Assembly: GCA_022575985.1 (NCBI GenBank)
Contig: JAKSXM010000007.1
Span: 65,998,501-66,062,500 of the forward strand
From: Anagrus nilaparvatae
Taxonomy: Eukaryota > Arthropoda > Insecta > Hymenoptera > Mymaridae
DNA length: 64,000 bases
Direction of reading: 5' to 3'
The notes below the pieces were generated by a model that saw nothing but the letters and a program-made list of their open reading frames with translations, did not search any database and was not told where the DNA came from. The translations under genes and the position numbers were made by a program. Shown here piece after piece: positions 23,800 through 56,830 of this stretch (positions are counted from its first letter, which is position 1; each line of letters opens with the position of its first letter).

Positions 23800-23838
<39 letters not shown>

Positions 23839-34719: not shown

Positions 34720-37282
34720 TAAGAAAGACGAAGACGGGAGATGTCCTGGTTGAGCTGAAGGAACTTAGTGATAAAATAGGTTCCTTCTCACAAGAAGTAA
34801 GGAGAGTATTGGGTGAGGAGGCCCGGGTTAGGGATCTTGCTCCTAAACGAGTTATACAAATACTTGACTTGGACTGTCTCACCCAGTCAATAGACGTTCT
34901 AAATGTCATTAAAAGCAAAGAAGAACATGCGGAGATAGCAAGGGTGACTATTTCTAAGAGCAACGCAAGAGAACAGAGAGCTGCTTACGTTGACTTTGAT
35001 GAAAGAACCGCCTTCAAATTGGTCCGCATGGAACGTATCAAAATAGGATGGATGAACTGTAGGGTAAGGCTAAAAACCCCATTAACCCGTTATTTTAAAT
35101 GCCTACGTTATGGCCATTTTGCTACAAAATGCAATGGACCAGACAGGAGAGCAAGAGACATTATATATCAACTTGCTAGAAAAAAGTCGGCAGACCTCCT
35201 CATCATAAGTGAGCAAGGGGTCCGACCAAGCTCTCTGAACTGGTTTACGGATGAGTTGGGTACTGCGGCAATCTGGGTAGTGAATCCGAGAAAGGTTCTA
35301 GTACAGGAAAAAGGCGCTGGCAGAGGCTTTGTCTGGATTAAAACAAACGGTGTTACCTACATAAGCGTGTACTTAACGCCAAATGAGCTTAGGCAGGACA
35401 CTCTGAGTAAAATGAATAGTTTGGAAGATGCCATAAGGGATATGACTGGTGAAATTGTAATGGCAGGCGATTTCAACGCGAGAGCTCCAGAGTGGGGTAT
35501 GTCAGAAACGGATGCAAGAGGAGAGGACATACTTGACCTGTTTGCCAGGCTCAACTTGGCTGTGCTAAATGTAGGTAACACTACTATTTTCAAAAAGCCA
35601 GGCTACGGACAGACCATCCCAGATATATCGTTTGCAACAGAAAATTTGGCTGCCAGGATTACTGATTGGCAAGTCCTAGAGGACTTCTCAGCGAGCGACC
35701 ACCAATATATTTCTTTTGAGGTGCATGATGAACGGCGGCTGACACGAAGAGACGAAGCACAGAAATGCTGCGGATGGAACATCAAGCGGTTAAACCGCGA
35801 AATTTTGGTGAACACGCTTAGAAGAGGAGAGACTGCTATCCAGGGAAAAGCAATTAGACCAGGAAATATTGACGATGCAGAGGATATAGTCAAGGGAATC
35901 ATGACGCTGCTGGAAAAAGCATGTAACAAGCCATGCCAAAAAAACGGACCCGTGATGGAAGACCACCAGCCTACTGGTGGAATGCTGAAATAGATCGTCT
36001 AAGGAGTGAAAGCTTAACTACAAGAAGGAGAGCAACACGTGCAAGGAACAGAACAGACGCTGCTGAGCTGATGGCAGAGCATAAGCAGGTCAAGAAAAGG
36101 CTGAGACTTGCTGTTAGGAGAAGCAAAAGAACATGCGAGATAGCTTTGTGTAACGAGGTTGATAATGGCCCATGGGGTCTTGGGTACAAGATAGTCACCA
36201 AGAGAATCGGCGCTCTTTCCGCAAGTGGTGTTATAAACGAAGACGATTACTTATAGTTGACGGACTTTTCCCTACCCACCCGGAGAGGGAGGAGGAAAAT
36301 GACTCAGGTGAAGATGATGAGGCTTTCCCCGAATTTACGGAGGAGGAACTCTTCACAGCGGTGGACTCTCTCAAGAACGGTAAGGCACCAGGTCCTGATG
36401 GGATACCTACCGAAATACTGAAGATAGCTGCGCACGAATGCCCAAAACTCATCTTATATATGTACAATACTTGTGCACGTGCGGGCATCTTCAGTAAACT
36501 CTGGAAAAGAGCAAGACTGGTCCTTATCAGTAAGGGCAAAGGGGACCCAAGACTGCCAAACTCTTGGCGCCCTCTAGGATTACTGGATACAGCCGGCAAA
36601 AATTACGAGAAGATGCTACAGCCAAGGATACTGAGGGCCGTAGAAACTGCGGGAGATCTCTCTCCTAGACAATACGGATTTCGTCGAGGGAAGTCAACAA
36701 TCGATGCAATAAGCAGTATTGTTCGGGCCATCGAAAACGCACAGACTGGTAATCACTATTCGAAAAAGATCACGCTAATAGTGACCCTCGATGTGAAAAA
36801 TGCCTTTAACTCAGCAAGATGGAGCGATTTCATGGGGGGACTCAGGAACTTCAAGGTGCCAAATTACCTGCGAAGAATAATCAGCAGCTACCTGAGTGAT
36901 CGGGAAATAATCTTTGAAACTGCACAAGGAAGAAGAGTGAGGAAAGTAACTGCAGGTGCAGTTCAAGGATCGGTCCTTGGACCGGATCTATGGAACATTA
37001 TGTATGACCATGTACTAAGGCTACCGATGCCGGCTGATACTTTTACTGTAGGCTACGCGGACGACCTGGTCCTAGTAATTACGGCAAAAAATGAAAAAAT
37101 CGCCGAGGAGAAACTGAATCAGGCAATGCATGGGGTCAATTACTGGATGGAAGACCACGGCCTAAAGCTTGCAACGGCGAAGACTGAGATTGTCCTATTC
37201 ACCCGCAAGCATATTGAGACTATTATCCCAATATGTATTGGGGAGGATAGGATAGAAACGAAGGAACACTTCAAGTACTTAG
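34720..37282 (+). pseudogene. R1-like non-LTR retrotransposon, 5' part (gag/EN/RT)
   Basis: Starts inside a gag-like ORF1 (KTKTGDVLVELKELSDKIGS) and passes through one CCHC knuckle (CLRYGHFATKC). It then runs straight into the endonuclease domain (LIISEQGV, GDFNARAPEWG, the SASDHQ end motif), so the ORF1 end and ORF2 start are deleted and the two are fused. The linker follows in a second frame from 35933, and the reverse transcriptase in a third (GKAPGPDG, YGFRRGKSTIDA, TLDVKNAFNSA, AVQGSVLGPDLW, YADDLVLV). Two one-base losses explain the frame changes: one in an A-run near 35940, one near 36250. The ORF is cut at 37282 by the 18.7 kb hAT element and resumes at 56013. Confidence 0.9.
37275..37282. 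repeat. 8-bp target-site duplication, left copy
   Basis: GTACTTAG, repeated exactly at 56005-56012; it fits the hAT preference nTnnnnAn. Confidence 0.95.
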
Positions 37283-39565
37283 CACGGTTGTTAAAATACC
37301 TTGCGCGGGTATAATATACGTATCTTATAGGTATAATATACGGTATTTTATAAGTATATTAAAAATCTAGTGACCCTATAGATAATATCATTGTAAGAGC
37401 AGACGGAAAGAGCATGCATGGTTTATTTTGTAAAAAAATGTCAGTTGTTTATTAAATTTGTTAATAATTTAAAATAAAAGAAAAAAATACAGTGTAAATA
37501 AAAAATAAAGAATAATCTGAAGTTTATGAAAATAAAGTAAGTAAATATTCAACTACAAATTAATGAAAATATTTAAAAAGAAATCTTATTTACATAATAT
37601 TGTCACATTGTATTAACTGATTTTTTAAATATTTTTAACAAATTTTTACAAAAATACTTTATCATATAACAAAAACATTAATTGATAAAATACAACATAA
37701 AATACAATAATAATTAATAAAATTAATAAATTTTTACAAATGAGAGAATAAATGTAAGAAAATTTAATGTAAATTACCAAACATTGTGCAAATTATGTTG
37801 TTTTAAAAATATTTTTAAATTTTCTTATTCAACAAAAGAGACAAACATTAAATTACAATTATATGCTTTCAATTTTAGATCTGAGAAAACAGTAATCTGA
37901 ATTCTGAATATATAGTTACTCAAGCTACCAAATTATTTAAAAATTCCTCGCTGAGGCATCATCAATATACTCATTGTTCTTCAATTTAGCTAAACAATGT
38001 AAGTACAATTTAAATGAATCAACTACAATCAACTTAGGTTACTTATTTACCTTAGGTTTAGGCAGTTCAAGTTAATTTAACTAATTTAGTTGATTCTTAT
38101 TTTATTAACCAGTTGTCCGAGCTCATTTGAATCAGTTATTTGCAAAGAAGTATGCTCGTATTATCAAATTTTAGAATATTAAATCTAAATCTGCAACCAT
38201 GATTACAAAGATTCACTTATAAATCTATGAAATTAATTAAAAATAGTGTAAGATTAAGAAAATATATATTCATTCAAAATTTAAATTAACAAATAATGAC
38301 AATAAATTTTTTGAATATTTTTAACAGCTTTTCACAACAATTAATACTTTATCATAATATAACAAAAATAATAATTTTCATAATTAATATAATTAACAAA
38401 TTGTTACATATAAGAGAATAAAAATAAGAAAATTAAATCTAAATTACCAAAAAATGTGAAAATTATGTTATTTTAAATATATTTAAAAATTTTTTAATTT
38501 AACAAAAGAGACAAACATATAGTTACAATAATATGCTTTCAATTTTAGATCTGAGAAAACATAGGATCTGAATTCTGAATACTGAAGATACCAAAATATT
38601 CAAAAATTCCTCGCTGAGACATCATCAATATAATTATTGTTCTTTACTTCAGCTGAACAATGTAAGTATATTTTTAATGAATCAACTGCAATCAACTTAG
38701 ATTACTTATTTACCTGAGGCCTAGGCAGTTCAAGTTAATTTAACTAATTTAGTTAATTATTATTTTAACAACCAGTTGTCCGAGCTCATGTGAATCAATT
38801 ACTTGCAAAGACGTATGCTCGTATAGAATATTAAATCTAACTCTGCATCCATGATAGGTTCACTCATAATTCTATTAAATTAATTAAAAATAGTGTAAGA
38901 TTAAGAAAATATATAATCAAAATTAAAATTAACAAATAATGAAAAAATTTGATCCAATTTGTGAAATCAAAAATCTTTTAACCCAATACACATTTATCAT
39001 CTGTGCTCAAAATAAAAACAACTTTTTCATACATAACAAATTCTGCATTTACCTCAAACATTAAGATTGAATCAGGTGGATAAAATATTATTTTTCAATT
39101 TAAGATTTCAAGAAATAGAAACCTCTGAAATCTTTGATTCTTGTAGCCATTTATCAAAAATTATGTCCTTTAAAATTTAAAAAAAAAAAAATTTTAATTA
39201 TTGACTGCAGGCGCAGAGAGATACTAGCACTTAAAATATCCTGCAAATTTGAGCTACTAAATTAATCAAGATTTTTTTACAAATTTTTTGAATTAAAAAT
39301 CTTTGAATATAAAATATAGAACATTATTTAGCATCGATTCATTGAAAAATTTTTTTTACATCCTATTTTTTTCCCCAATAAATGTATATATCAGAATACA
39401 AAAACTATACCACCAGACTTTCATAACATTAAAAAGGCCTATATAAAATAAAAACCACACGATATGCCCGACTCCCAAATAGCTTAAGGAAGATCTTTCT
39501 TTACAAAATACAAGACATTCACCACATAACTTAAGTAAGACGTCTAAATTTAAAAAAAATGACAC
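37283..39565. repeat. Terminal inverted repeat, left (about 2.28 kb)
   Basis: Reverse complement of 53722-56004. Within each TIR there is also an internal direct duplication of about 0.9 kb: the blocks CAATTTTAGATCTGAGAAAA, CCTCGCTGAG and CCAGTTGTCCGAGCTCAT occur twice (near 37869/38539, 37949/38608 and 38110/38772). Confidence 0.92.
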
Positions 39566-41330
39566 GTCAAGCATTACACCCACATAGCCTTATGCAGCGG
39601 ACTTTAGTAAAAAAACGACACGTCAAGCTTTATATCCACATAACCTAATGCAGCGGACTTTAGTAAAAAAACGACACGTCAAACTTTATACCCACATAAC
39701 CTAATGCAGCGGACTATAGTAAAAAAACGACACGTTAAGCTTTATACCCACATAACCTAATGAAGCGGACTTTAGTAAAAAAACGACACGTCAAGCTTTA
39801 TACCCACATAACCTAATGCAGCGGACTTTAGTAAAAAACGACACGTCAAGCTTTATACCCACATAACCTAATCCAGCGGACTTTAATAAAAAAACGACAC
39901 GTCAAGCTTTATACCCACATAACCTAATCCAGCGGACTTTAGTAAAAAAAAGACACGTCAAGCTTTATACCCACATAACCTAATCCAGCAGACTTTAGTA
40001 AAAAAACGACACGTCAAGCTTTATACCCACATAACATAATGCGGCGGACTTTAGTAAAAAAACGACACGTCAAGCTTTATACCCACATAACATAATGCAG
40101 CGGACTTTAGTAATAAAGCGAAACGTCGAGCTTTATACCCACATAACCTAATGCTGCGGACTTTAGTAAAAAACGACACGTCAAGCTTTATACCCACATA
40201 ACCTAATTGAGCGGGCTTTAATAAAAAAACGACACGTCAAGCTTTATACCCACATAACCTAATTGAGCGGGCTTTAGTAAAAAAACTACACGTCAAGCTT
40301 TATACCCACATAACCTAATGCAGCGGACTTTAGTAAAAAAACGACACGTCAAGCTTTATACCCACATAACCTAATTGAGCGGGCTTTAATAAAAAAACGA
40401 CACGTCAAGCTTTATACCCACATAACCTAATTGAGCGGGCTTTAGTAAAAAAACTACACGTCAAGCTTTATACCCACATAACCTAATGCAGCGGACTTTA
40501 GTAAAAAAACGACACGTCAAGCTTTATACCTACATAACCTAATGCAGCGGACTTTAGTAAAAAAACGACACGTCAAGCTTTATACCCACATAACATAATG
40601 CAGCGGACTTTAGTAAAAAAACGACACGAAAACTTTATACCCACATAACCTAATGCAGCGGACTATAGTAAAAAAACGACACGTCAAGCTTTATACCCAC
40701 ATAACCTAATGAAGCAGACTTTAGTAAAAAAACGACACGTCAAGCTTTATACCCACATAACCTAATGCAGCGGACTTTAGTAAAAAACGACACGTCAAGC
40801 TTTATACCCACATAACCTAATGCAGCGGACTTTAGTAAAAAAACGACACGTCAAGCTTTATACCCACATAACCTAATCCAGCGGACTTTAGTAAAAAAAC
40901 GACACGTCAAGCTTTATACCCACATAACCTAATTGAGCGGGCTTTAGTAAAAAAACTACACGTCAAGCTTTATACCCACATAACCTAATGCAGCGGACTT
41001 TAGTAAAAAAACGACACGTCAAGCTTTATACCCACATAACCTAATTGAGCGGGCTTTAATAAAAAAACGACACGTCAAGCTTTATACCCACATAACCTAA
41101 TTGAGCGGGCTTTAATAAAAAAACGACACGTCAAGCTTTATACCCACATAACCTAATGCAGCGGACTTTAGTAAAAAACGACACGTCAAGCTTTATACCC
41201 ACATAACCTAATGCAGCGGACTTTAGTAAAAAAACGACACGTCAAGCTTTATACCCACATAACCTAATTGAGCGGGCTTTAATAAAAAAACTACACGTCA
41301 AGCTTTATACCCACATAACCTTATGAGGTA
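39566..41330 (+). repeat. 56-bp satellite S2, left array (about 32 units)
   Basis: Unit blocks: CGACACGTCAAGC, TTTATACCCACA, TAACCTAATGCAGCGGAC, TTTAGTAAAAAAA; period 56 bp. Marker variants (GGACTATAGT, CACGTTAAGC, TAATAAAGCGAAACGTCGAG) occur in the same order as in the right array, but the left array has two extra units near 39860-39980. Units with TTGAGCGGGC and with TGCAGCGGAC alternate in blocks. Confidence 0.95.
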
Positions 41331-41379
41331 TTGTGTACAGTAGTCACAATACTTTTTATAATTTTACTGCTGTATTTAA

Positions 41380-43054
41380 CCCTCCGTGGGGTCACTATAT
41401 TTTTACCCTCGCGTTTGGGGTCACTGTAACGATATCGACAATGACAATTTTTGGCTCCTTTAAAAATAATTTTTGGCCAAATTTTTTTTTTAAGGTTTTA
41501 GATAAATATTTCAATTAAAGTATAAAAAGGGTTTTAGGCCAAAATGTCCGCTCAGTTTTGGGCAAAAAATTCCGGAATGGCGGAAAACGAGGATTTTTTT
41601 AACTTTCGGTCCAAAATTTATATCTCCGGCCCTAATTGATATTAAGGGGAAATATTCTAGGGATTTAATCTTCAGATATATATCTTCAAAAAAAGAAAGC
41701 CCAGATTTGGCTCCGTTGCAAAAACCATATTTATTTTGCAATCTGAAAAATGGTGTTTTTTCGATTTCAAAAATTTAAAAAAATTGAATGTTTTATGGGT
41801 TAAACACCACCCCAGGGGCATTAAATGTCGAAAAAATTATTTGTAGATGAACTTCAACATTTATATGAATAAATAAAAAAAAAATGCCCAAAAAAAATTA
41901 AGGTGTTGGCCGCAACAACCGGATAAGCTGTAATAATCAGAAAAAAAATTACGTTTTTTTTGGGAAAAATTAAAATATGTTATTAAAATATGTTATCACT
42001 ATTTTTATTATTTTTTTTTTTATTTCAAACACTATATTATAAAAAATACAAAAAATTAAGTACAAAATTTAAAAATTTTATGTTCTACATTTATAACAAA
42101 TATTGATACGATCTTCGCACGCTGCTCTTCCACAGTTAGAATAGCAAAAAGTTGTTCTCTTCTTATCAGTAGGAGCAGTGCTGGATTTAGGCTTGTGGGG
42201 GCCTGTAGGCACCCAATGTTAAAAAAATTTTGTGGGGGCCTTTTCTAATGGCTCAATTTGTGGGGGCCCGTAGGCCGGGCCTACAGTGCCTACATGGTGA
42301 ATCCGGAACTGAGTAGGAGGACAGCAGGAACACAAATGTCTTTTACCATCTTCGAATTAAATCAACTTCCTCTCGTGTTCTTGAGGCTTATTTAGGATGT
42401 TCCGAATCAACTCTCGAGTTGAATAGGAACATCCTAAGGTCGAAACTTCCAAACGAGTCGATAAATGAGGTTTGATAAGATCTAAACCAAGTTTCATTTG
42501 GAAATCTTTTCTTGGCAGTTCAAGTTCTTCTTTAAAATTTAAAATTATGTTTGAATTGACTCCAGCCTGATCTAGCATTCCATAAAATAGTCTCATTGGC
42601 CACCTTTAACTGACTCTGGTCACAAAATAGTTCCCTCAGAACGTAATCTGCAGGTAAAAAAACTTTTTATTTGAGAAAAACAAGAATTTCGGGCACTTTT
42701 TTTGGTAAAAGACACGTGGTTATCATGTATAATTAATTTGTACGCGAAAATAAGTTAAATATTTTAACAAATAACTTTATTTAGAGCAAAAATAAATAAA
42801 TTTTTTACTTACCAAAAGTAGCAAAAAAAATCACGTCCTGGGGTCACTGTCACGATATCGTCAACGGTCCAACTTTGCACTGACGCTACGACTAAACGGC
42901 TAAATCGATACTGACGCGGCTTGGCAGATGTTCATATAATGGTGTCAAGTTTTTTTAGGAGGGGTTACCAACTGCCAACCATTGTGCATGTCTGAGATAC
43001 GAAAAAGGTGCAATTCCTTAGATGACGAAATCGTTACAGTGACCCCACGGAGGG
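41380..43054 (-). mobile_element. piggyBac remnant nested in the hAT element
   Basis: The ends CCCTCCGTGGGGTCACT and AGTGACCCCACGGAGGG are flanked by TTAA (41376-41379 and 43055-43058), the piggyBac signature. On the minus strand it keeps only the transposase C-terminus: RWPMRLFYGMLDQAGVNS near 42606-42553, then LGLDLIKPHL, and a cysteine-rich end with CSCC, CYSNCG and CYKC (about 42340-42090). That end is split by a hAT MITE. Most of the transposase is missing and an in-frame stop precedes RWPM, so it is non-autonomous. It ends only 28 bp before the ATG of BED gene 1. Confidence 0.85.
42176..42311. mobile_element. 136-bp hAT MITE in the piggyBac remnant
   Basis: The ends CAGTGCTGGATTTAGG and CCGGAACTG (inverse CAGTTCCGGATTCACC) are inverted repeats. 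AGTAGGAG flanks both sides (42168-42175 and 42312-42319), an 8-bp duplication. It splits the piggyBac cysteine-rich domain between CCPPT and DKKRTTF. Confidence 0.85.
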
Positions 43055-43082
43055 TTAATAAATTCGATCCTTTTTGTTTTAG

Positions 43083-45660
43083 ATGCCTCGAACGGCGAAT
43101 GTAGATGATTGGGCTGGTTTTCGGCAAGTCCGAAATGATGCGAATGTTATTAAAAAGGCTCAATGCCTTAAATGTAATACAATTTTCTCAAGAATTAACA
43201 AGGAATTTCGAGTTAGTCATCGGTAAGTTATATTTTTTTACTTGACAAACATTTAGAAGTCGCATCAATTTCAAGTACTAAAAAATTTAACCTATTAGTT
43301 GTGAACATTATGTCTTTATTTTTAATTATAAATTTTTAATGCTTATGTTCGACTAGATTTTAATTTATAATTAATTAAATTAATCTTTGTTTAAATGGAA
43401 ACAATTTCTTATATGCATAAAGTACCAAGGACACAAAAGATTTGGCAACTAAAAGACGAATATAAAGTTGTTTACTCATGCGTTTTTTTTGCGTACGGGG
43501 TTATACAAAGTGTGTAGAAAATCCCGTGTTATTTCGTGATTAAAACTTGGAACGTATTTTCTTGCATTCCCGATTGGATATATTTCTTTAAAAGAATTAT
43601 GTAGTATTATGTTAGTCTTGCGTTTCGAACATCTAATTGTTAACAATTACACTGTAAAAATATTAAATTTTCAAATTACAAAAATCTATGACCTGCTGTC
43701 AGTCATGTGTGAAAAAATTAATAAAAATAAAACAAAGTTTAAAAAATTTCATGATTTAGCTGTATTTAATTTTATGTGAGGTTTATTAAAAAACATAATC
43801 AATATATTTATACACTATCTCATACTTTTCATGAATTTAATAAATGAATATTTGTTAAAAACCTTCGATTGCTTTTTTTTTATGTGTATATCATATATAT
43901 TTTTTTCTTAATTTTTTATAAGTCTTTGTTATTGATAAAATAAATTATTTTTATATATTCTTAAGATTTATATACACTGCTGTTAAAATGACCTATATGA
44001 TAATTATACAAAATTTTCGTTAATTAACAAAGATAATTGTAAATTTACAAAAAAAAGTCGTAATTTTGCGATCGATCGTAAATTAACGATTTTTTAATAA
44101 TTTGACAATATTTTAGTAAATTTACGATTTTTTAAATAAAAATACGACAAATTCGTAACTTTACGATAGTTTCGTATATTTACCATAGGATATTTTTTAC
44201 AGTGTATTTTTTAGAAATAATAATACAAAACTACATTTACAAGATTTTTTATTTAACATTCGTATTTTCTATAAATAAGAAGATAATAAAATAAATAATT
44301 TCCTACATTTAAATTTTTTTTGTTTTTGTTTTTATCAGTGAAAAATGCCATGGACAAGTAATTGCTTCAGAGCCTTTACAAGCTGATACTGAAGAAAGTA
44401 ATTTGATGCAAGAGACAGATGAATCACTGTCATTAACTGAGGTAACGATAATGATCGAAAAATAAACGGTTCTTTTTAATAATTTTCTTTTTAAAAAACA
44501 TTCATCTTCATCATACGAATTTAAAATTTTAATTTTTTTAGCAATCCAGAGAAGATAGCTTACTAGTGGAACCAGTTGACAAAAAACAATTTAAAAGTGC
44601 ATTGTGTAAAGTTTTCATTGCCTATGATTTGAATTACAATGAAGTTGGTTCTGGAGTTTGGACCGAACTGTTCACAGCATTAAATAAAAATATTGACATT
44701 CCAAAACCTGAGGAGTTAAAAAATAGTTTTTCCCAGGTGTATCAAAATATAATAATAGATACCTTAACTGCAGGAGTCCTGCCCATTCTGATAGTCATTT
44801 TAAATGGAAACAGCGATTTACATTTATTTAGTTTCCTTATGACAAGAAACAATAGTTTTACATTAATTGATGTTAGTAAAATTCAGATGATAAGTTTTTT
44901 AGATGATTTTTATACGTTTTGCGATGCAAGTGTTGAGAAATGTTTAAATTTATTTGACGTTAAAATTAATTTTATTATGCATAATATTGAATTCGCAATA
45001 AGTGGTGAAGGAAAAGATTACAGCATTATACAGTGTTTTTCTTTTTTGTTAAAAAGATTAAAATCTAAAAATTTTTCTTACTTAAATTTACCACTTGAAG
45101 AACACAAAAAAATTGCTGAATATCAAGAAGCTTTGAATGATATCGAAGAAAATTTAAGTGATAAAAATTATACTTTATCAGATGCAGTTCAGGATTTACT
45201 AGTGCGTATGAACTATTTTAATGGCCGAATTCCACTAAACGTTGAAAACGATATACTAGATCAAATTTATGATTTCATTGAGCCAATACATGTTGCATCT
45301 AATTACTACAATTGTAATTTTCGAGCCAAAAAAGCTCGAAAATTTCATGATTTATGCGAAAAAATGACTACATTTTTTTTACGAGAAATTCCTAAAGAAG
45401 CTGAAAAATTAAACACAAATTATATAAACAAAACTGGGCCTTTTTTAGAATTTTACATAAATGATAATAAAACTATGCATGCAAAACATTTTTGGATAAT
45501 TCATAAAGAGGCTGCAAAAGAACTAGCTCTTATTGTTGAACCACTGGTATATTTACCAGGGATGATACCCGAAATTAATTTAGATAAACTTTTAACATGT
45601 TATGATGAGTATACTTCTTTTTTTGTAAAAAATAATTTAACTTTAAAATATAGTTATTAA
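43083..45660 (+). CDS. BED-finger protein, hAT-derived, catalytic acids absent (gene 1)
   Basis: Three exons, 43083-43222, 44339-44441 and 44542-45660, all GT-AG, giving 453 residues. Exon 1 plus the start of exon 2 encode a BED-type finger C-x2-C-x14-H-x3-C (CLKC to SHREKC). The same spacing, start (MPR) and 140-bp exon length occur in the transposase gene on the opposite strand. The rest aligns loosely with that transposase's N-terminal half: a cryptic region near residues 98-152, then LIVILNGNSD near 165-172 where the transposase has LLVDGW, and IMHNIE where it has IVTDND. No hAT dimerisation region follows. I infer a non-catalytic DNA-binding partner or repressor. The ATG follows TTTTTGTTTTAG, so a 5' UTR intron is possible. 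The piggyBac remnant sits just upstream. Confidence 0.8.
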
Positions 45661-48600
45661 GAATCATTTCAAAAAGTTAAATATTTTTAAGATTTACTGT
45701 CATGTCAATCTTAACAGTCATGATTTAAATACAAAGTATTTAAATATAATATAATAACTTAAGTAATTTATATAAGCAAAAAAGAAAGTAGATAAAAATT
45801 ATTAGCAAAGGAAATTAACTACATTTGGAACACTTAATTACTTGCTACATTTATTGGTTAATTTGTTAGATAGACAAAAATGTTTTTTTAAATGCGCTTT
45901 AAACTCCATGTGCTTTTTGATCCCTAGTATTAGAGCCTGCTATTTTTCGTCCACGGTGCTTACAATATTCTTTGTCTACCGAGAACGAGTGTAAACAATG
46001 ACGCGCTAAATTTTACGTACGGGAAGGCACAAAAATTATAAGCATCATATGCAACAAATTTTAGATAGTACTAGCGTGATTATTTATCACTAATTTTTGG
46101 TTGTATGAGACATTTCTACTTTTGAATGCTCTTGTTTCAAAGTTTGTGATGATCTTAGTTTAAATTCTAAGGTAAAAACGTTATTATGAAGAATTTGGTG
46201 TGTCCAGATTTAGTGAACTTTCCTTATAAATTGGTTTATTATTAGGAACAAATTGTGGACATAGGATATAATAAATGTATTCAAAAATAGTAGTAATATT
46301 ATCTGTGATAATAACGAAATTCGTACCTGAATATTTATATGATTCGGTCCACAAAAAAAAACCAAAAGCTTTTTTGTTACAAAGCTAAATTGCTTGTGTT
46401 GAAAGTATTTAATAATATTTATGTTAAATAACTAATTTTGTTAACATATCCAATGCAGGGTAAAAATTTTCATTGCAAATCCCTACTTTCAACCACAATA
46501 AAGCTTAAAAATGTTGCCAAAGTAAAAAACAAAAGATAAGCATGTTACAAATAAAATGGTTAAAAAAAATAAGAAAAATTTTAGTACAACGTGAATTTTT
46601 TTAATAAATAACTTTTAATAGCATATGCATAGTTTAGAATAGCATGTGCATTATTTTAATATTTAAAAAAAGATATTCTTACCTTACCTGTTTTTAGTAG
46701 ATGTTTCTTTTCAAAAAGTTTAATTAGAAAAATGTTACATTTTAAATTTTATAATGTTTCAAGTAACATGTATTTCAGTTCTTTTAGTCAAACCATTTAT
46801 CAAACCAAAGGCTTTTAAAAAAGATAATCTAAAGTATTTAATTAGTTATTTTTAAGAAATTAAAAATGAAAATTTTGTTTTAGGGCCAAAATTCACGTAT
46901 TGAATATAGAGAGTAATAGAAAGTTTTTAGTGCCATTAATTCTATGAAACCAAGTATCTACTGTAAGGTGCTTATTTAAAAGTTAACAATCAGAAAGATT
47001 GCATGATTATAAATATTTCGTAAATTATTAGCTCCAAATACTTATTTTTAAAGATTATTTTAAGTGTTTATATTATTTTATTGGTAAACAATTGTTCTTG
47101 TTTTAAATGGTGCTAAAAAATTTCTATGATAACCTATCTTTAACACAATACCTTTGGCCCCGTAAGTTTTTATGAATAATAAAACGAAAAGGTTCTGAAC
47201 ATAGTTAATATGTTGAATTTTTCATTTTTTATTTTTTCAATATTATTACATACATATAATAAAAAATTTTTATAATTAGTAATAACTTACAAATTCTTGT
47301 TTCTTTTAAAAATTTGTTTTTTGTCATATTCATGTAAAAGTTGAAGCCACTGTATTAAAAAAAATAAAAAATTACTTTTTGTAAACTACTGTGTATATTT
47401 TTTTTTTTTATAAAGTCTCTAATTATAGGTAATTTATTTTTATTGTATTTATAAATACTCTTGTCTTCATTTGATCCAAAATAAAACGAGTGTAAACATT
47501 TAGTGTAGATTTTTTTTACATTTGTTATAGAGTAATTATCAAGTAATCATAAAAAACTGTAACTTAAGAAGGCTGGATGTTAGCCATTTTTTTGTTATTT
47601 ACCAATAGGAGGCTAGGTAAAGTATTATTTTCCCAAAAAAATACGACTTTAATTTTCAATTAAATTTAAAAAAAAAAATAGCAAATAACCATTATAAGAT
47701 AATTTTTTTGTTTTTTAATAAATATAGAATTAATTTGAAATATACTTTTTAAATTCAGAATTTTAGAATGGAACATGCTTATAAGGAGACGGTACCTCAA
47801 GAACTTGAAAATTCAGGGGGGATCGAATTTGTCCGGTTTAAGGGGGTAGGTCAAATAAGATTTAGAATAATTTCAATTTAGGGACTTTGAAGAATCTGGG
47901 CTTAAGGAATGACACAGGTTTATGGACTTAGAATAATATCAATTTAGGGAGTTAAAATAAATCGGATTTGGGGACTTAAATTAATTTTTCTTCATAGCGG
48001 GTCAAAAACACTTTTTTCGCCCCGCAACCAGATTGAAAAAAACGCGTTTTCACCCCACTGAGAAAGAAAAATTTCGTTTTGTCCATGGGAACAAAAAAGA
48101 AATACCCCAGATCGCAGTTTACCATCCTCGGCTTCGCCTCGGATGCTTATTAACGTACGATCTGGGCCATTCTTTTTTTTTGCTCCCTTGGTTAAAAATG
48201 TACTATTAAGTAAGGGACCTAGAAAAATGCCCTCATCTGGGAGTAAATATTTTCCACGCATTTAGGTTGTGTTTACACAAACCGATTGAGTTTTATTTAA
48301 AGTTTCAATCATCTTAATTTTTGTTTAGTTATGAAAAACCAGTATCCATTAAGGTGTTAGAATACTAAAAATTTATGATAACAGAAATGAATGAAACTTA
48401 TACAACACAAAGATAAAGGCTTTAAGAAATGAAATAAACTTTCTTTTATAACTTTGGTTGCCTAATTATTATTTAATCAAGAAAACAGTGTAGGTAGTTT
48501 AACATTGCTCTTATGGAAAATCATCTTTGGAGATTGTAAAAAGGATGATTGCGATTACACAGATTAAAAAACTTAAATAATATGGTAAATAAAAGCTCAA

Positions 48601-48781
48601 AGATTATATTTCCAATTTGTTTTACTTGTTTTATTGCTTAATTATTAAATAATTAAATAAAAAGTAAGTAAATAACCTAATATTATACTAATACATATAC
48701 AATTGTACATATGTATGTAGCGTCGATAATTCAGAAATCGAAAAAAAAACCAACAAAATTGCGTCTTACTATTGTAACACC
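45661..48781. other. Spacer between the two convergent genes
   Basis: AT-rich, 3.1 kb, no supported gene. A family B repeat (ATGGAACATG, TTAGAATAAT, TTTAGGGAC motifs) lies at 47767-48000. A GC-richer patch at 48000-48240 has an open frame on the minus strand without a recognisable domain. Confidence 0.55.
47767..48000. repeat. Dispersed repeat family B, copy 2
   Basis: Begins ATGGAACATGCTTATAAGG and carries repeated TTAGAATAATTTCAATTTAGG and TTAGGGA motifs, like 11291-11568. The inverted right end seen in copy 1 is not recognisable here. Confidence 0.5.
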
Positions 48782-50869
48782 TTAAAATATTAAATGTCTT
48801 TTTTTGCTTTTCTTCGTTTTTTGAATTTCTTGATCAAAATTTAAATGCTTTAAAGAATGATAATAATCAACAAGCTGAGCAGATTTTAAATCTCCTAATC
48901 TGTTTCTTGTTGATGAGTGAATGTAAGTCCAACTAGAAAAATAACCTTCAATCAAAGCTGTAGAAGCTGGAATCAACATCAATTTTACGGCAAATTTTGA
49001 TAATTCAGGCATGATGAATTGCAGATAATTCCAAAACGATATAGGAGATTCGCACCTTTCAGCAAAATTGTCATAATCGTGCATATTTCTTTCAAACCTT
49101 AAAAGTTCTTGTTTTCCTTGATTATTCAAATTTTCTTGAATAAAAAGGTTACCCATACCAAATTGCAAGTTATCCAAGGAACGGCCTTTATATTTATGAT
49201 GGAGAATGTTTGCAGCGAAGCAAACAGGTCGTAAAGCTTTTGATATTCTTAACTTGACTGCATTATGATCATCATTGACTTGTAAAAGCAAAGATATCCA
49301 GTATTCTGTTGCATCTGCAATATTATATTCAGGGTCTTGGCATTTATTTATCAGTTTGCATATTGGAGTCAGTTTTCGAATACAAGTAAATAATTTGTCT
49401 ATAAATTCTCCATCATTTAATTTATCTACAATATCATGTGGAATATTAACATCTTCTAGTCTACTAATGTCCTTTAATTTATCAATATTCAATAAAACAG
49501 ATTCAAATGAATCGCGAACGTAACAAAATCTTGTATCTGGAAAATTTCTTAATTTAGTACCCCCTAACCTTAAAAGTAATGACTCGTGTTTTGGTGTACT
49601 GAATACAGTTATTATTTCTCTTACTTCTTTGTACAAATCTTCATCCATTAAAGATTTAATAAGCAAGTTTCCACTATGACTGGAGCACGTCGATTGCCAT
49701 AAACTTTGCAGATTCGCTGTTTCAGCTAGTCTCCCAGCTCTAACAATTTTACTATCATTGTCTGTCACAATTGCATATATATTAGTATCATAAACTTCTT
49801 TAGCTAGCAAAATAGCATTGTTAATATGATAAGCCAAATTTTCTCCATCTTCTGTTTCTAATGAAATATCATTAAAAGTAAGAAACGTTTGATAAGTATG
49901 GATATTGCGAACTGTGAAGACTAAATACTTTTTATTAACTGCTTTATTTTTCCAGCCATCTACCAAAAGAATGCTATCTGTATTTTTTAAAAGACTTTTC
50001 TTTTGATCAATAATATCATCATAGCAAGACCTAAGAATAGAAGTTGCTAAAGTTTGCCTACAAGGCGGTTTGTAATTAACTTTTATATTGCACAAAGTAT
50101 CAACTAAATCAATAAAATGCTTATTTTCCACGGATCTAAAAGATACGCTGCACGAAAAAAAAAAATTTGCAACTTTTTTATCTACCATTTTCTTAACTTC
50201 CTCAAAATCCATATCATCATCTTCGGAGGTGTTTTCATTTTCAACATTTCTATTTTCATGACGCCTACAAAATTTGGTGATAAGTATATAATTTGTCAAA
50301 AGTGAAATAGATATATAAATAAAAGTTTTGAGCCATCGCTCATACATCAAATCTTGGACAATAAAAAAATCTAAAGTATTAAAATAATAACAATTGAAAT
50401 AATAACAATTGAAATTATCAAAACTAAAACTTTCGAAAAATTTAAGTTGTGACATAATTGTAGTTAATATTTACATTTTTTTTTTCATTTAAAATAGGTT
50501 TAAAACAAGTTGTATATAATTTTATATGATTAAAGAACTTACACACTATTTATTTCATTATTTGATGCAACATTTTCTAAAAAATTGGAAGTATTTTTTT
50601 CAATGGTATTATTGGAAACATCCAATTGTTTCTTTTGCATGATATCGCAGATATTTCTGAAAAATAGAAAATTTTATCAATATTTGATATGATATTATTG
50701 TAATAGCAAATTGCAAATGTGCAAAAAACCTGTGACTATTTAAACTTCTGAAGGAGCAAAAGCGTATAATACTTTTACAAGAATTGCAAATCACTCCTTC
50801 TATTTTATAATTATCAATATTTCTCAATTTAGAAAATCCAGTATAGTCTAAACTTGATTTTCTAGGCAT
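48782..50869 (-). CDS. hAT transposase with BED finger (gene 2)
   Basis: Minus-strand exons 50869-50730, 50656-50543 and 50264-48782, all GT-AG, phases consistent, 578 residues. N-terminus: BED-type finger C-x2-C-x14-H-x3-C (CNSC to SHRNIC). An acidic linker follows (ENTSEDDDMDFEE). The DUF659/hAT-type RNase H core has LLVDGW (Asp about 187), IVTDND (Asp about 253) and the CSSHSGNLL block. The C-terminal hAT dimerisation region has IPASTALIEGYFSS (Glu about 524) and STRNRL. These would be the DDE triad by comparison with known hAT enzymes such as Hermes; that assignment is from memory of the family. The frame is intact, so it could be active. The start is set at MPRK because it aligns with MPRT of gene 1. 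A basic tail (KKSKKR) may be a nuclear signal. Confidence 0.88.
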
Positions 50870-51142
50870 GTTAACCAAATCATCCAATTCAGAACCTGAG
50901 TTTATATAATGTTGTGAACAAGTTAAAGAGTAAACCCAAAAATTGTTTAAGTAAGGTATAAGATCTGAAAAAAAATTTTATTTATTTTAATGTTTATAGT
51001 AAAAATAATCATGCACGATTTAGAAAATAAAAATATTTATTTTATATTTAAGTGTGGTATCTTAAAAAAAACTTGGTTATATTCTATTTGTTGTCAAGGA
51101 ATAAAAAAAATATTCGGTTTTAAATGTTTTAAAATTCAGTTA
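50870..51142. other. Upstream region of the transposase gene
   Basis: About 270 bp between the transposase start and the S2 array. It must hold the promoter unless the satellite does. No specific element identified. Confidence 0.45.
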
Positions 51143-53721
51143 AAGCTTGACGTGTCGTTTTTTTACTAAAGTCCGCTGCATTAGGTTATGTGGGTATAAA
51201 GCTTGACGTGTCGTTTTTTTACTAAAGCCCGCTCAATTAGGTTAAGTAGGTATAAAGCTTGACGTGTCGTTTTTTTACTAAAGCCCGCTCAATTAGGTTA
51301 TGTGGGTATAAAGCTTGACGTGTCGTTTTTTTACTAAAGTCCGCTGCATTAGGTTATGTGGGTATAAAGCTTGACGTGTCGTTTTTTTACTAAAGTCCGC
51401 TGCATTAGGTTATGTGGGTATAAAGCTTGACGTGTCGTTTTTTTACTAAAGTCCGCTGCATTAGGTTATGTGGGTATAAAGCTTGACGTGTCGTTTTTTT
51501 ACTAAAGCCCGCTCAATTAGGTTATGTGGGTATAAAGCTTGACGTGTCGTTTTTTTATTACAGCCCGCTCAATTAGGTTATGTGGGTATGAAGCTTGACG
51601 TGTCGTTTTTTTATTAAAGCCCGCTCAATTAGGTTATGTGGGTATAAAGCTTGACGTGTCGTTTTTTTACTAAAGTCCGCTGGATTAGGTTATGTGGGTA
51701 TAAAGCTTGACGTGTCGTTTTTTTATTAAAGCCCGCTCAATTAGGTTATGTGGGTATAAAGCTTGACGTGTCGTTTTTTTACTAAAGTCTGCTGGATTAG
51801 GTTATGTGGGTATAAAGCTTGACGTGTCGTTTTTTTACTAAAGTCCGCTGGATTAGGTTATGTGGGTATAAAGCTTGACGTGTCGTTTTTTTATTAAAGT
51901 CCGCTGGATTAGGTTATGTGGGTATAAAGCTTGACGTGTCGTTTTTTACTAAAGTCCGCTGCATTAGGTTATGTGGGTATAAAGCTTGACGTGTCGTTCT
52001 TTTACTAAAGTCCGCCGCATTATGTTATGTGGGTATAAAGCTTGACGTGTCGTTTTTTTACTAAAGTCTGCTGGATTAGGTTATGTGGGTATAAAGCTTG
52101 ACGTGTCGTTTTTTTACTAAAGCCCGCTCAATTAGGTTATGTGGGTATAAAGCTTGACGTGTCGTTTTTTTACTAAAGTCCGCTGCATTAGGTTATGTGG
52201 GTATAAAGCTTGACGTGTCGTTTTTTACTAAAGTCCGCTGCATTAGGTTATGTGGGTATAAAGCTTGACGTGTCGTTTTTTTATTAAAGCCCGCTCAATT
52301 AGGTTATGTGGGTATAAAGCTTGACGTGTCGTTTTTTTATTAAAGCCCGCTCAATTAGGTTATGTGGGTATAAAGCTTGACGTGTCGTTTTTTTACTAAA
52401 GTCCGCTGCATTAGGTTATGTGGGTATAAAGCTTGACGTGTAGTTTTTTTACTAAAGCCCGCTCAATTAGGTTATGTGGGTATAAAGCTTGACGTGTCGT
52501 TTTTTTACTAAAGTCCGCTGGATTAGGTTATGTGGGTATAAAGCTTGACGTGTCGTTTTTTTACTAAAGTCCGCTGCATTAGGTTATGTGGGTATAAAGC
52601 TTGACGTGTCGTTTTTTACTAAAGTCCGCTGCATTAGGTTATGTGGGTATAAAGCTTGACGTGTCGTTTTTTTACTAAAGTCTGCTTCATTAGGTTATGT
52701 GGGTATAAAGCTTGACGTGTCGTTTTTTTACTATAGTCCGCTGCATTAGGTTATGTGGGTATAAAGTTTTCGTGTCGTTTTTTTACTAAAGTCCGCTGCA
52801 TTATGTTATGTGGGTATAAAGCTTGACGTGTCGTTTTTTTACTAAAGTCCGCTGCATTAGGTTATGTAGGTATAAAGCTTGACGTGTCGTTTTTTTACTA
52901 AAGTCCGCTGCATTAGGTTATGTGGGTATAAAGCTTGACGTGTAGTTTTTTTACTAAAGCCCGCTCAATTAGGTTATGTGGGTATAAAGCTTGACGTGTC
53001 GTTTTTTTATTAAAGCCCGCTCAATTAGGTTATGTGGGTATAAAGCTTGACGTGTCGTTTTTTTACTAAAGTCCGCTGCATTAGGTTATGTGGGTATAAA
53101 GCTTGACGTGTAGTTTTTTTACTAAAGCCCGCTCAATTAGGTTATGTGGGTATAAAGCTTGACGTGTCGTTTTTTTATTAAAGCCCGCTCAATTAGGTTA
53201 TGTGGGTATAAAGCTTGACGTGTCGTTTTTTACTAAAGTCCGCAGCATTAGGTTATGTGGGTAGAAAGCTCGACGTTTCGCTTTATTACTAAAGTCCGCT
53301 GCATTATGTTATGTGGGTATAAAGCTTGACGTGTCGTTTTTTTACTAAAGTCCGCCGCATTATGTTATGTGGGTATAAAGCTTGACGTGTCGTTTTTTTA
53401 CTAAAGTCTGCTGGATTAGGTTATGTGGGTATAAAGCTTGACGTGTCGTTTTTTTACTAAAGTCCGCTGCATTAGGTTATGTGGGTATAAAGCTTGACGT
53501 GTCGTTTTTTACTAAAGTCCGCTTCATTAGGTTATGTGGGTATAAAGCTTAACGTGTCGTTTTTTTACTATAGTCCGCTGCATTAGGTTATGTGGGTATA
53601 AAGTTTGACGTGTCGTTTTTTTACTAAAGTCCGCTGCATTAGGTTATGTGGGTATAAAGCTTGACGTGTCGTTTTTTTACTAAAGTCCGCTGCATAAGGC
53701 TATGTGGGTGTAATGCTTGAC
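51143..53721 (-). repeat. 56-bp satellite S2, right array (about 46 units, inverted)
   Basis: Inverse of the left array; on the plus strand each unit reads GTGGGTATAAAGCTTGACGT. Outer units match the left array unit by unit except for two missing units; inner units differ more in order and number. Every unit carries TATAAA pointing outward from the gene region. Confidence 0.95.
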
Positions 53722-56004
53722 GTGTCATTTTTTTTAAATTTAGACGTCTTACTTAAGTTATGTGGTGAATGTCTTGTATTTTGTAAAGAAAGATCTTCCT
53801 TAAGCTATTTGGGAGTCGGGCATATCGTGTGGTTTTTATTTTATATAGGCCTTTTTAATGTTATGAAAGTCTGGTGGTATAGTTTTTGTATTCTGATATA
53901 TACATTTATTGGGGAAAAAAATAGGATGTAAAAAAAATTTTTCAATGAATCGATGCTAAATAATGTTCTATATTTTATATTCAAAGATTTTTAATTCAAA
54001 AAATTTGTAAAAAAATCTTGATTAATTTAGTAGCTCAAATTTGCAGGATATTTTAAGTGCTAGTATCTCTCTGCGCCTGCAGTCAATAATTAAAATTTTT
54101 TTTTTTTTAAATTTTAAAGGACATAAATTTTGATAAATGGCTACAAGAATCAAAGATTTCAGAGGTTTCTATTTCTTGAAATCTTAAATTGAAAAATAAT
54201 ATTTTATCCACCTGATTCAATCTTAATGTTTGAGGTAAATGCAGAATTTGTTATGTATGAAAAAGTTGTTTTTATTTTGAGCACAGATGATAAATGTGTA
54301 TTGGGTTAAAAGATTTTTGATTTCACAAATTGGATCAAATTTTTTCATTATTTGTTAATTTTAATTTTGATTATATATTTTCTTAATCTTACACTATTTT
54401 TAATTAATTTAATAGAATTATGAGTGAACCTATCATGGATGCAGAGTTAGATTTAATATTCTATACGAGCATACGTCTTTGCAAGTAATTGATTCACATG
54501 AGCTCGGACAACTGGTTGTTAAAATAATAATTAACTAAATTAGTTAAATTAACTTGAACTGCCTAGGCCTCAGGTAAATAAGTAATCTAAGTTGATTGCA
54601 GTTGATTCATTAAAAATATACTTACATTGTTCAGCTGAAGTAAAGAACAATAATTATATTGATGATGTCTCAGCGAGGAATTTTTGAATATTTTGGTATC
54701 TTCAGTATTCAGAATTCAGATCCTATGTTTTCTCAGATCTAAAATTGAAAGCATATTATTGTAACTATATGTTTGTCTCTTTTGTTAAATTAAAAAATTT
54801 TTAAATATATTTAAAATAACATAATTTTCACATTTTTTGGTAATTTAGATTTAATTTTCTTATTTTTATTCTCTTATATGTAACAATTTGTTAATTATAT
54901 TAATTATGAAAATTATTATTTTTGTTATATTATGATAAAGTATTAATTGTTGTGAAAAGCTGTTAAAAATATTCAAAAAATTTATTGTCATTATTTGTTA
55001 ATTTAAATTTTGAATGAATATATATTTTCTTAATCTTACACTATTTTTAATTAATTTCATAGATTTATAAGTGAATCTTTGTAATCATGGTTGCAGATTT
55101 AGATTTAATATTCTAAAATTTGATAATACGAGCATACTTCTTTGCAAATAACTGATTCAAATGAGCTCGGACAACTGGTTAATAAAATAAGAATCAACTA
55201 AATTAGTTAAATTAACTTGAACTGCCTAAACCTAAGGTAAATAAGTAACCTAAGTTGATTGTAGTTGATTCATTTAAATTGTACTTACATTGTTTAGCTA
55301 AATTGAAGAACAATGAGTATATTGATGATGCCTCAGCGAGGAATTTTTAAATAATTTGGTAGCTTGAGTAACTATATATTCAGAATTCAGATTACTGTTT
55401 TCTCAGATCTAAAATTGAAAGCATATAATTGTAATTTAATGTTTGTCTCTTTTGTTGAATAAGAAAATTTAAAAATATTTTTAAAACAACATAATTTGCA
55501 CAATGTTTGGTAATTTACATTAAATTTTCTTACATTTATTCTCTCATTTGTAAAAATTTATTAATTTTATTAATTATTATTGTATTTTATGTTGTATTTT
55601 ATCAATTAATGTTTTTGTTATATGATAAAGTATTTTTGTAAAAATTTGTTAAAAATATTTAAAAAATCAGTTAATACAATGTGACAATATTATGTAAATA
55701 AGATTTCTTTTTAAATATTTTCATTAATTTGTAGTTGAATATTTACTTACTTTATTTTCATAAACTTCAGATTATTCTTTATTTTTTATTTACACTGTAT
55801 TTTTTTCTTTTATTTTAAATTATTAACAAATTTAATAAACAACTGACATTTTTTTACAAAATAAACCATGCATGCTCTTTCCGTCTGCTCTTACAATGAT
55901 ATTATCTATAGGGTCACTAGATTTTTAATATACTTATAAAATACCGTATATTATACCTATAAGATACGTATATTATACCCGCGCAAGGTATTTTAACAAC
56001 CGTG
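53722..56004. repeat. Terminal inverted repeat, right (about 2.28 kb)
   Basis: Reverse complement of 37283-39565 with exact positional symmetry. Confidence 0.92.
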
Positions 56005-56012
56005 GTACTTAG
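56005..56012. repeat. 8-bp target-site duplication, right copy
   Basis: GTACTTAG, identical to 37275-37282. Confidence 0.95.
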
Positions 56013-56830
56013 GAGTGTTGCTGGATACGAAACCTAGCTTCATGGCGCAGATTCGGAGAAGTACGGAGAAGGCTGCTAGGTCTACTACTGCGTTAAGCAG
56101 GCTCATGAGAAACACGTGCAGACCTAAGACTGGAAAGCGCAGGCTTCTTATGTCGGTAACCAACTACATACTACTGTATGGTGCAGAAGTATGGACCGAC
56201 TGCATAAAGAAGGTCACTTATGCGTCTAAGCTTACGAGCGTGCAGAGGCAAGGAGCCCTGCGAATCTCCTGTGCCTATCGAACAGTGTCGTTGGAGGCAG
56301 CTCTGGTCATTGCTGGGGTAATCCCGATAGATCTGCTGGCTCTTGAGAGACAGTATATCTATCTGAACAAAGAGAGGGAAGGTATTGACCGCGCGAAGGC
56401 TACTTCGCGCCAGATCAGCCTAAGCGATTGGCAGAAGCGCTGGACCGACTACACGGAGAGCAAATGGACCAAGAGATTGATAGGAGAGATATCACCTTGG
56501 ATAAATAGAGGGCATGGGGACATTAATTATTTTTTGACCCAATTCCTAAGTGGACATGGACTTTTTTTCTCCTACCTCTTTCGGATCCAGAAGATGAATA
56601 GTGCTGAATGTATATACTGTCCTGGCAAAGAAGACACGCCGGAACACACATTCTTCAAATGCGATAGGTGGGCTGCTAAAAAGTTTCAATTAGAAGCTAA
56701 CATCGGTCAAATCACACCTGAGAATGTGGTTACCCTGATGCTTCGAAATGAAGAAGTATGGTCCAAAATTGGCCAGTATGTGGAGTACATACTCCGCACC
56801 AAAAAACCTGAAGTCCAAGGTATAGGCTAA
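56013..56830 (+). pseudogene. R1-like retrotransposon, 3' part after the hAT insertion
   Basis: Continues the ORF2 frame interrupted at 37282: with one copy of the 8-bp duplication counted, FKYL reads straight into GVLLDTKPSF. It contains the post-RT region and the C-terminal zinc motif (CIYCPGKEDTPEHTFFKC) and stops at 56828-56830. The insertion itself causes no loss of retrotransposon bases. Confidence 0.92.

Follow-up and report, generated by a model that had tools for sequence, protein, structure and literature searches.

The genome of the hymenopteran Anagrus nilaparvatae (Mymaridae) raises the question of what kind of element carries a hAT transposase between inverted arms of several kilobases that are partly built from satellite DNA, and what else that element encodes. 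The stretch analysed, here called the window, comprises 64,000 nucleotides (assembly GCA_022575985.1, contig JAKSXM010000007.1, positions 65,998,501 to 66,062,500), and the element, E1, occupies 37283-56004 of it. A first-pass annotation made from the letters alone described an 18.7 kb hAT-type transposon, and this description holds, since the element is 18,722 bp long and has an intact hAT transposase, exact ends and an exact target-site duplication (TSD). E1 is a real hAT of foldback build with a dead-transposase partner gene, and there is little doubt that the element and its family are real and that the design comprises two genes.

The boundaries are sharp. The 18-bp end CACGGTTGTTAAAATACC has one copy per strand in the window, at 37283 and at 55987-56004, and the 8-bp TSD GTACTTAG is found within the window solely at 37275 and 56005, directly outside both ends (37275-37282 on the left, with an exact copy at 56005-56012 on the right). 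Inverted ends and an exact 8-bp duplication had both been claimed for this locus, and so had the resumption of the host open reading frame (ORF) on the other side; all of this was found. The flanks, joined minus one copy of the TSD, give a single open reverse-transcriptase frame over the junction (...EHFKYLGVLLDTKPSFM...), and the joined 1.8 kb has four stops, all at 56828 or further, that is, at the end of the ORF. The host ORF, labelled R1 in the first-pass annotation, has RVT_1 and endonuclease domains according to Pfam. Its reverse transcriptase part, with RVT_1, lies to the left of the insertion (36166-37282, plus strand; ORF list and Pfam) and its in-frame continuation to the right (56013-56830, plus strand; ORF list and flank joining).

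Each end of E1 opens into an outer arm of 2,270 bp, the left one starting with CACGGTTGTTAAAATACC (37283-39552, plus strand) and the right one inverted (53735-56004, minus strand), with one mismatch between them. Inside these, tandem-repeat analysis finds arrays of a 56-bp satellite, 31.8 units on the left (39553-41325, plus strand) and 46.4 on the right (51141-53734, minus strand). The arrays face each other, in agreement with the paired arrays described earlier, and are themselves part of the inverted repeat. The terminal inverted repeats (TIRs) of 2.3 kb given in the first-pass annotation thus correspond to the outer arms, but the inverted repeat runs on through the satellites to a full arm of 4,043 bp on the left and 4,864 bp on the right (97.3% identity over 4,048 columns). 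Both arms together make up nearly half of the element.

Of the two genes between the arms, gene B encodes the transposase. It is located on the minus strand and has three exons (50730-50869, 140 nt; 50543-50656; 48782-50264) with GT-AG junctions and a product of 578 aa. Exon 3 encodes the hAT transposase core, as judged from Pfam, homologues and fold; both DUF659 and Dimer_Tnp_hAT are above the Pfam cut-off. The protein collection contains 98 homologues, the top one being 56% identical over 82%, and the five with species names are, as we take it, from four Hymenoptera and one beetle. When the gene B protein was aligned with 27 of these homologues, D171, W173, D237, C262, H265, and E508 were invariant across all 28 proteins; D171, D237, E508, C262, and H265 are presumably the catalytic and CxxH residues of hAT transposases. 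The best solved relative is Hermes, with a weak sequence match (E 0.002) and a clear fold match to the predicted structure of the gene B protein (mean predicted local distance difference test score, pLDDT, 83.6; Foldseek E 5e-15; template-modelling score, TM, 0.54). Hermes shares the transposase fold and the dimerisation domain with gene B, and has an 8-bp TSD, but it is unlike E1 in having a single gene, a length of a few kb and short TIRs.

A BED zinc finger is common at the N-terminus of hAT transposases, and the N-terminus of gene B displays a BED-like CxxC...HxxxC pattern. The first exon gave no zf-BED match in Pfam, which is a weak test for exon 1 alone because the last cysteine is encoded in exon 2. 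When the six first exons of the two genes at the three loci carrying the pair (see below) were compared with Pfam, none had a zf-BED match above the cut-off; the best score was that of gene A of the C365 locus (E 0.0019, 18.6 bits against a cut-off of 20.6). BED is therefore a pattern-based label only, and of the intact BED-hAT transposase claimed earlier the intact hAT type stands, while the BED finger is seen by pattern and is not called by Pfam. No relatives of the transposase, the E1 end or the satellite were found in the viral and GTDB collections, and Rfam gave zero matches at the gathering score.

Gene A, absent from the first-pass annotation, is the more surprising feature of E1. It lies on the plus strand, convergent to gene B, and encodes 453 aa in three exons: 43083-43222 (140 nt, BED-like by pattern and drawn by eye, with no Pfam match), 44339-44441, and 44542-45660, the last being a degenerate hAT core that in profile comparison has no recognisable catalytic motifs. 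Its open frame of 372 aa compares with a maximum of 174 aa for ORFs arising by chance in 400 simulated sequences of 10 kb. The first 50 residues of the two E1 proteins are 33% identical (blastp, E 0.002), and the first exons of both genes at all three loci have an ATG start, a GT donor, equal phase, a length of 140 or 143 nt and a CxxC...H pattern. When gene A was searched by sequence against Pfam and the PDB, all matches stayed below threshold. Against the transposase profile, gene A alone scored 20.6 bits, while the best shuffle reached 8.9 (500 shuffles, 404 scored), and in hhalign it scored 39.4 against 27.8 for the best of 100 shuffles. A three-member gene A profile aligned with the transposase over 327-328 columns (E 3.6e-12 and 1.2e-11), the real score being 93.9 and the maximum among 60 column shuffles 23.4. 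In the alignment the DGW motif is absent, TDND is replaced by HN[IL][ED], so that the first D, which we take to be a catalytic residue, has become N, and the H of CxxH has become F; the alignment stops just short of the final E. Because of this profile alignment and the missing catalytic motifs, gene A appears to be a paralogue of the transposase in which catalysis has been lost. Adding gene A to the transposase alignment with MAFFT placed the N-terminus poorly, and profile comparison was used instead; a structure predicted without an alignment had a pLDDT of 35 and was set aside. Between the left satellite array and gene A sits a nested element of 1.7 kb (41376-43058; repeat analysis), likewise absent from the first-pass annotation, with TTAA flanks and 21-bp perfect TIRs (TTAACCCTCCGTGGGGTCACT), which we assume from the TTAA to be piggyBac-like.

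The assembly from which the window was taken (488,676,385 bases, 393 contigs) contains further copies with the E1 end. Exact matches to the 18-bp end number 10 on the forward and 11 on the reverse strand, and a looser pattern allowing up to three mismatches gives 13 and 15, while the reversed-pattern controls gave 0 and 0 in both cases. The exact ends form ten inverted pairs, one of them E1, and leave one end without a partner. The first-pass annotation had suggested a search for further copies that share the TIR but are flanked by different 8-bp sequences, and the nine additional pairs are such copies: each has an exact TSD, and all of these differ (GACGCACT, AATAAAGA, GCTATAGT, TATACAGG, AGTAAAAG, CGTAGCTT, CTTAAAAA, CATGTAAC, and ATGAAGGC). 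The nine relatives are 2,512 to 8,467 bp long, and tblastn at E 0.001 detects neither gene A nor gene B in them. All nine bear the satellite of E1 on arms that face each other, the innermost facing motifs being 52-87 bp apart. L011, the longest of them, has a left array broken by gaps of 1.3 and 3.5 kb. The E1 family is thus of foldback type, having long, internally repeated TIRs that constitute most of each non-autonomous copy. Two further observations concern single copies: L010 (C1:40136736-40139247; 2,512 bp) has an exact TSD and is an inverted repeat across its full length (94%), and L017 (C317:1473607-1473624) is the single E1-type end, with 19 satellite motifs adjoining and no partner in the stretch examined. 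The counts of arm identity and motif spacing refer to the nine paired relatives and exclude L017. E1 is the sole copy found in the assembly with both the exact E1 end and a transposase, and judging from its genes and ends it is apparently an autonomous cut-and-paste transposon.

A whole-genome search with the transposase led to four places, E1 itself, C234 (70%), C365 (74%) and C161 (26%), and gene A is present at all three loci where the transposase is at least 70% identical to that of gene B. Beyond these, the gene A search found a fragment on C157 and a broken relic at 84% on C79, with no transposase found within the 10 kb around the relic (C79:6128001-6138000). The C234 locus is a second giant element, E3 (C234:22780753-22801674), which is 20,922 bp long, ends in CAGAGATGTTAAAATACC, has the exact TSD AATAGAAG, and carries TIRs of 3,127 bp that are 99.7% identical. 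Genes A and B of E3 are convergent as in E1, with exon 3 open in each, and the pair at C365 is likewise convergent with exon 3 open in both genes. Among the three loci gene A is 39-41% identical and gene B 73-76%. The ratio of nonsynonymous to synonymous substitution rates (dN/dS, NG86) is 0.24-0.31 for gene A and 0.08-0.14 for gene B, values that are rough because dS is saturated. Both genes look constrained at the sequence level, with gene A evolving faster.

When it comes to classification, the 8-bp TSDs of all 11 paired elements (E1, the nine relatives, and E3), which are all different, and the gene B protein with its DDE-type residues, CxxH, and C-terminal dimerisation domain are those of a hAT. 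The hAT end motif is 5'-YARNG; the end of E3, CAGAG, conforms to it, while that of E1, CACGG, deviates at base three. Named hAT subgroups have the TSD consensuses nTnnnnAn and nnnTAnnn, to which 2/11 and 0/11 of the TSDs correspond, a mismatch that bears on the subgroup and not on the superfamily. TA is found at TSD positions 3-4 in seven of the 11, unlike these consensuses. A hAT typically, though not by definition, has short TIRs and a single gene and is a few kb long, and E1 and E3 depart from this with 18,722 and 20,922 bp, TIRs of at least 3 kb, and two genes. They do not belong to the P superfamily, the superfamily of Galileo, as the TSDs are 8 and not 7 bp and the transposase is a hAT transposase. 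Subterminal 11-bp repeats of the GTATATTATAC type occur at both ends of E1 (37309-37361 and 55926-55979), and similar ones at both ends of E3; they are candidate transposase sites.

How such an element might work can be outlined as follows. Given its family membership and the TSDs, the gene B transposase would pair the ends, cut, and insert with an 8-bp stagger, and it would also mobilise the transposase-less foldback copies that share the E1 end. Since E1 is the only exact-end copy found with a transposase, E1 or a sibling outside the assembly probably moved the nine relatives, and this movement would be fairly recent because several non-autonomous copies are mutually 99-100% identical over the first 650 bp. 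Gene A would be a duplicate of the transposase gene that is no longer catalytic and acts as an accessory joining the transposase complex, most likely by binding to DNA in the arms, the 56-bp repeats included where present; the chance that it has such an accessory role is judged to be about even. The arms would be kept alike by copying of one onto the other, whether by template switching across the hairpin, by gene conversion or during repair following excision, and such copying may also let repeats expand into satellites. The convergent genes between identical arms further suggest, by analogy with MuDR, that promoters are shared in the arms; in Mutator the long TIRs are described as harbouring both transposase sites and promoters (abstract-level account in PMC3310237). 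E1 may accordingly be pictured as a two-component hAT, where a dead transposase copy is the obligatory DNA-binding partner that reads the kb-long arms (in E1 also the 56-bp array) and joins the ends, while the arms are continually rewritten. This picture is put forward tentatively, with doubt outweighing confidence, and the confidence was lowered slightly because the DNA-binding finger was not confirmed by Pfam.

Several points tell against it. The models of both genes were drawn by eye, and the dN/dS values suffer from saturation as mentioned above. Searching the protein collection with exon 3 of gene A gave 2,869 candidates, none of which reached E 0.001, and DNA binding by gene A is a supposition, since just one of the six first exons has even a sub-threshold zf-BED match. 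The C365 locus is spread over more than 40 kb, with exons 1 and 3 of gene B about 25 kb apart, and its element ends were not found; the locus may for these reasons be dead. The spread is probably due to other insertions. In one relative, L014, the arms are merely 76.9% identical over the first 650 bp. Finally, no 56-bp array was found in E3, and satellite units related to those of E1 are also found in a second element of the window, E2, whose 9-bp TSD is not hAT-like.

The last two observations bear on an alternative, namely that the satellite is a selfish passenger spreading between transposon families and has no role in the transposition of E1, which is judged somewhat less likely than not. 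The 19-mer core of the satellite, AACGACACGTCAAGCYTTA, has 3,019 and 2,677 exact copies on the two strands of the genome, altogether 5,696, against 0 and 0 for the control, an abundance that fits a passenger. So do the arrays of E2, about 71% identical to those of E1 in an element with a different TSD and different ends, and the absence of arrays from E3. As E3 has 3.1 kb TIRs without any array, giant TIRs are possible without the satellite, which is thus not their cause; the design with two genes does without it as well, and it may be a passenger or dispensable. Two apparent satellite motifs per E3 arm were rejected, being two-mismatch matches without array context. A passenger would not readily account for the pattern of conservation within the unit: the E1-type and E2-type consensus units share 41/56 positions, and while the other 15/56 are changed, the two unbroken blocks AACGACACGTCAAGC and TAACCTAA have stayed the same, as has the distance between them. 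Nor would it account for the orientation of the unit. In the first 100 of the 5,696 places, which lie on one contig and form 17 clusters, all ten clusters of mixed orientation read plus and then minus, that is, as inward-facing arms. In Galileo, the THAP domain binds sites in the TIR repeats according to footprint and gel shift experiments (as summarised in PMC3688188), and by analogy two readings of the satellite remain, as arrays of binding sites or as a passenger between elements.

E2 itself (16545-25241), which the first-pass annotation had also missed, has inner inverted arms of about 0.78 kb in addition to its 56-bp arrays, while its short outer ends share GGGTATTTTACGGGATTTG and are flanked by the 9-bp duplication GGGCCGTAT. 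A reading of E2 as an E1 relative with ends at 16917/23765 and no TSD was rejected, as copies elsewhere in the genome show that it extends to about 16545, and it has the 9-bp TSD; its left arm region has 26 further full matches in the assembly among 40 scored of 144 candidates. Because of the 9-bp TSD it is not classed as a hAT, and it perhaps represents a non-hAT family resembling Mutator-like elements (MULEs). On both sides (15951-16543 and 25244-25335) it is flanked by a common repeat with palindromic tandem units, of which there are about 25 further copies at 94-97% among the matches listed, and E2 was probably inserted into this repeat. More tandem arrays, with units of about 140 bp and apparently opposite orientations, are found at the right edge of the window (62335-62822 and 63286-63974).

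For gene A the alternative is that it is a repressor, a catalytically dead relative of the transposase that limits copy number by poisoning the transposase multimer or by shielding the ends, and does not help transposition. Truncated products of the P element are a known case of such repression, and gene A has retained the transposase core in profile and not the catalytic motifs, as a repressor might. The assembly moreover contains one E1-type element with a transposase and nine paired copies without. The presence of gene A under constraint at all three transposase-bearing loci examined is easier to explain if the gene is helpful, but is still compatible with repression, which is considered rather unlikely.

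The arms seem to carry a record of their own history. In ten of the 11 elements, all but L014, the left and right arms share 98.0-100% identity when the first 650 bp are compared. Between elements the identity is lower: E1 is 92.0-95.6% identical to its nine relatives and 58% to E3, with 84% over the terminal 115 bp or so, and the arms fall into the diverged groups E1; L009/L011/L013/L014/L016; L010/L012; L015/L018; and E3. As arms are alike within elements and unlike between subfamilies, one arm has probably been copied onto the other. A segment of 1.3 kb in the E1 arm (38112-39431, plus strand) points in the same direction. Sequence comparison finds it in both arms of E1 and unmatched in the non-autonomous relatives (40 of 1,106 candidates were scored in the match search). 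It contains most of one copy of an internal duplication (37543-38394 and 38207-39042, 77% identical) as well as a piece of another dispersed repeat (39061-39389), and whether it was gained by E1 or lost by the relatives, its presence in both arms suggests arm-to-arm copying. Alternatively, the arms might be alike solely from youth, after a recent burst from one master and with no copying between arms. The near-identity of several non-autonomous copies and the unlike arms of L014 would fit a burst, but the five groups have diverged from each other while the arms, L014 excepted, are alike inside each element, the segment with its old internal duplication is specific to E1 and sits in both of its arms, and the independent arms of a master would differ between left and right. 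A young burst is accordingly regarded as improbable. Finally, that E1 is a compound of two hATs, or an ordinary hAT between unrelated inverted satellite arrays, with boundaries due to coincidence or misassembly, is hardly credible even if giant inverted repeats are difficult to assemble, given the exact TSD at the outermost bases, the in-frame host ORF, the nine relatives that share the end and arms of E1 and have exact TSDs of their own, E3 with the same gene order, and exact TSDs in all 11 paired elements.

Elements that resemble E1 in one respect or another are found in several superfamilies. MuDR, the maize Mutator element, has two convergent genes between its TIRs, one of them encoding the transposase, and resembles E1 in this gene pair; it differs in being a MULE, in that mudrB is not a transposase relative, and in its TIRs of about 0.2 kb. 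Foldback (FB) and Phantom, which also belong to the MULE superfamily and not to the hATs, are like E1 in having tandem repeats in the TIRs, and the role of these repeats as binding sites is called untested in the part of PMC3688188 consulted. Galileo of Drosophila has a foldback build and internally repeated TIRs of up to 1.2 kb (excerpts of PMC3688188 and PMC2775673). It shares with E1 the foldback structure and the long, repeated TIRs, and is unlike E1 in belonging to the P superfamily and having a THAP domain, 7-bp TSDs, and shorter TIRs; a second, dead-transposase gene is not mentioned for Galileo in those excerpts. In Tetris of Drosophila virilis, satellite arrays are seeded by tandem repeats within the foldback TIRs (abstract-level account in PMC4079207); it differs from E1 in being apparently non-autonomous and in its repeats of about 220 bp. 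Of the same superfamily as E1 is gadMor-hAT-1784 of Atlantic cod, a miniature inverted-repeat transposable element (MITE) with TIRs of about 600 bp made of 167-169-bp tandem repeats. As E1, it is hAT-derived with tandem-repeat TIRs; it is unlike E1 in that it has no ORF, is much shorter, and has no autonomous partner described in the available part of the account (PMC12368964).

The statement in the first-pass annotation that no described hAT has multi-kb TIRs and satellite arms must therefore be narrowed, in that tandem-repeat TIRs are known from the cod MITEs at about 600 bp (PMC12368964, in part). Among the matches listed from open-access titles and the beginnings of abstracts, no hAT is described as having TIRs several kb long or a further gene resembling a transposase. 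Foldback builds are already known from P and MULE elements, and TIRs that are short and built of repeats from a cod hAT that lacks a transposase.

What is new here is a foldback-built hAT with an intact transposase, a constrained, open dead sister gene, and a giant sibling free of the satellite. The arms of the E1 family seem to be a natural record of arm-to-arm copying, and the second gene in related copies suggests an unusual two-part transposition. The E1/E3 system thereby opens the questions of why giant TIRs evolve and whether the work of a transposase can be divided between a cutter and a partner, and it also bears on the ties between transposon arms and dispersed satellites.

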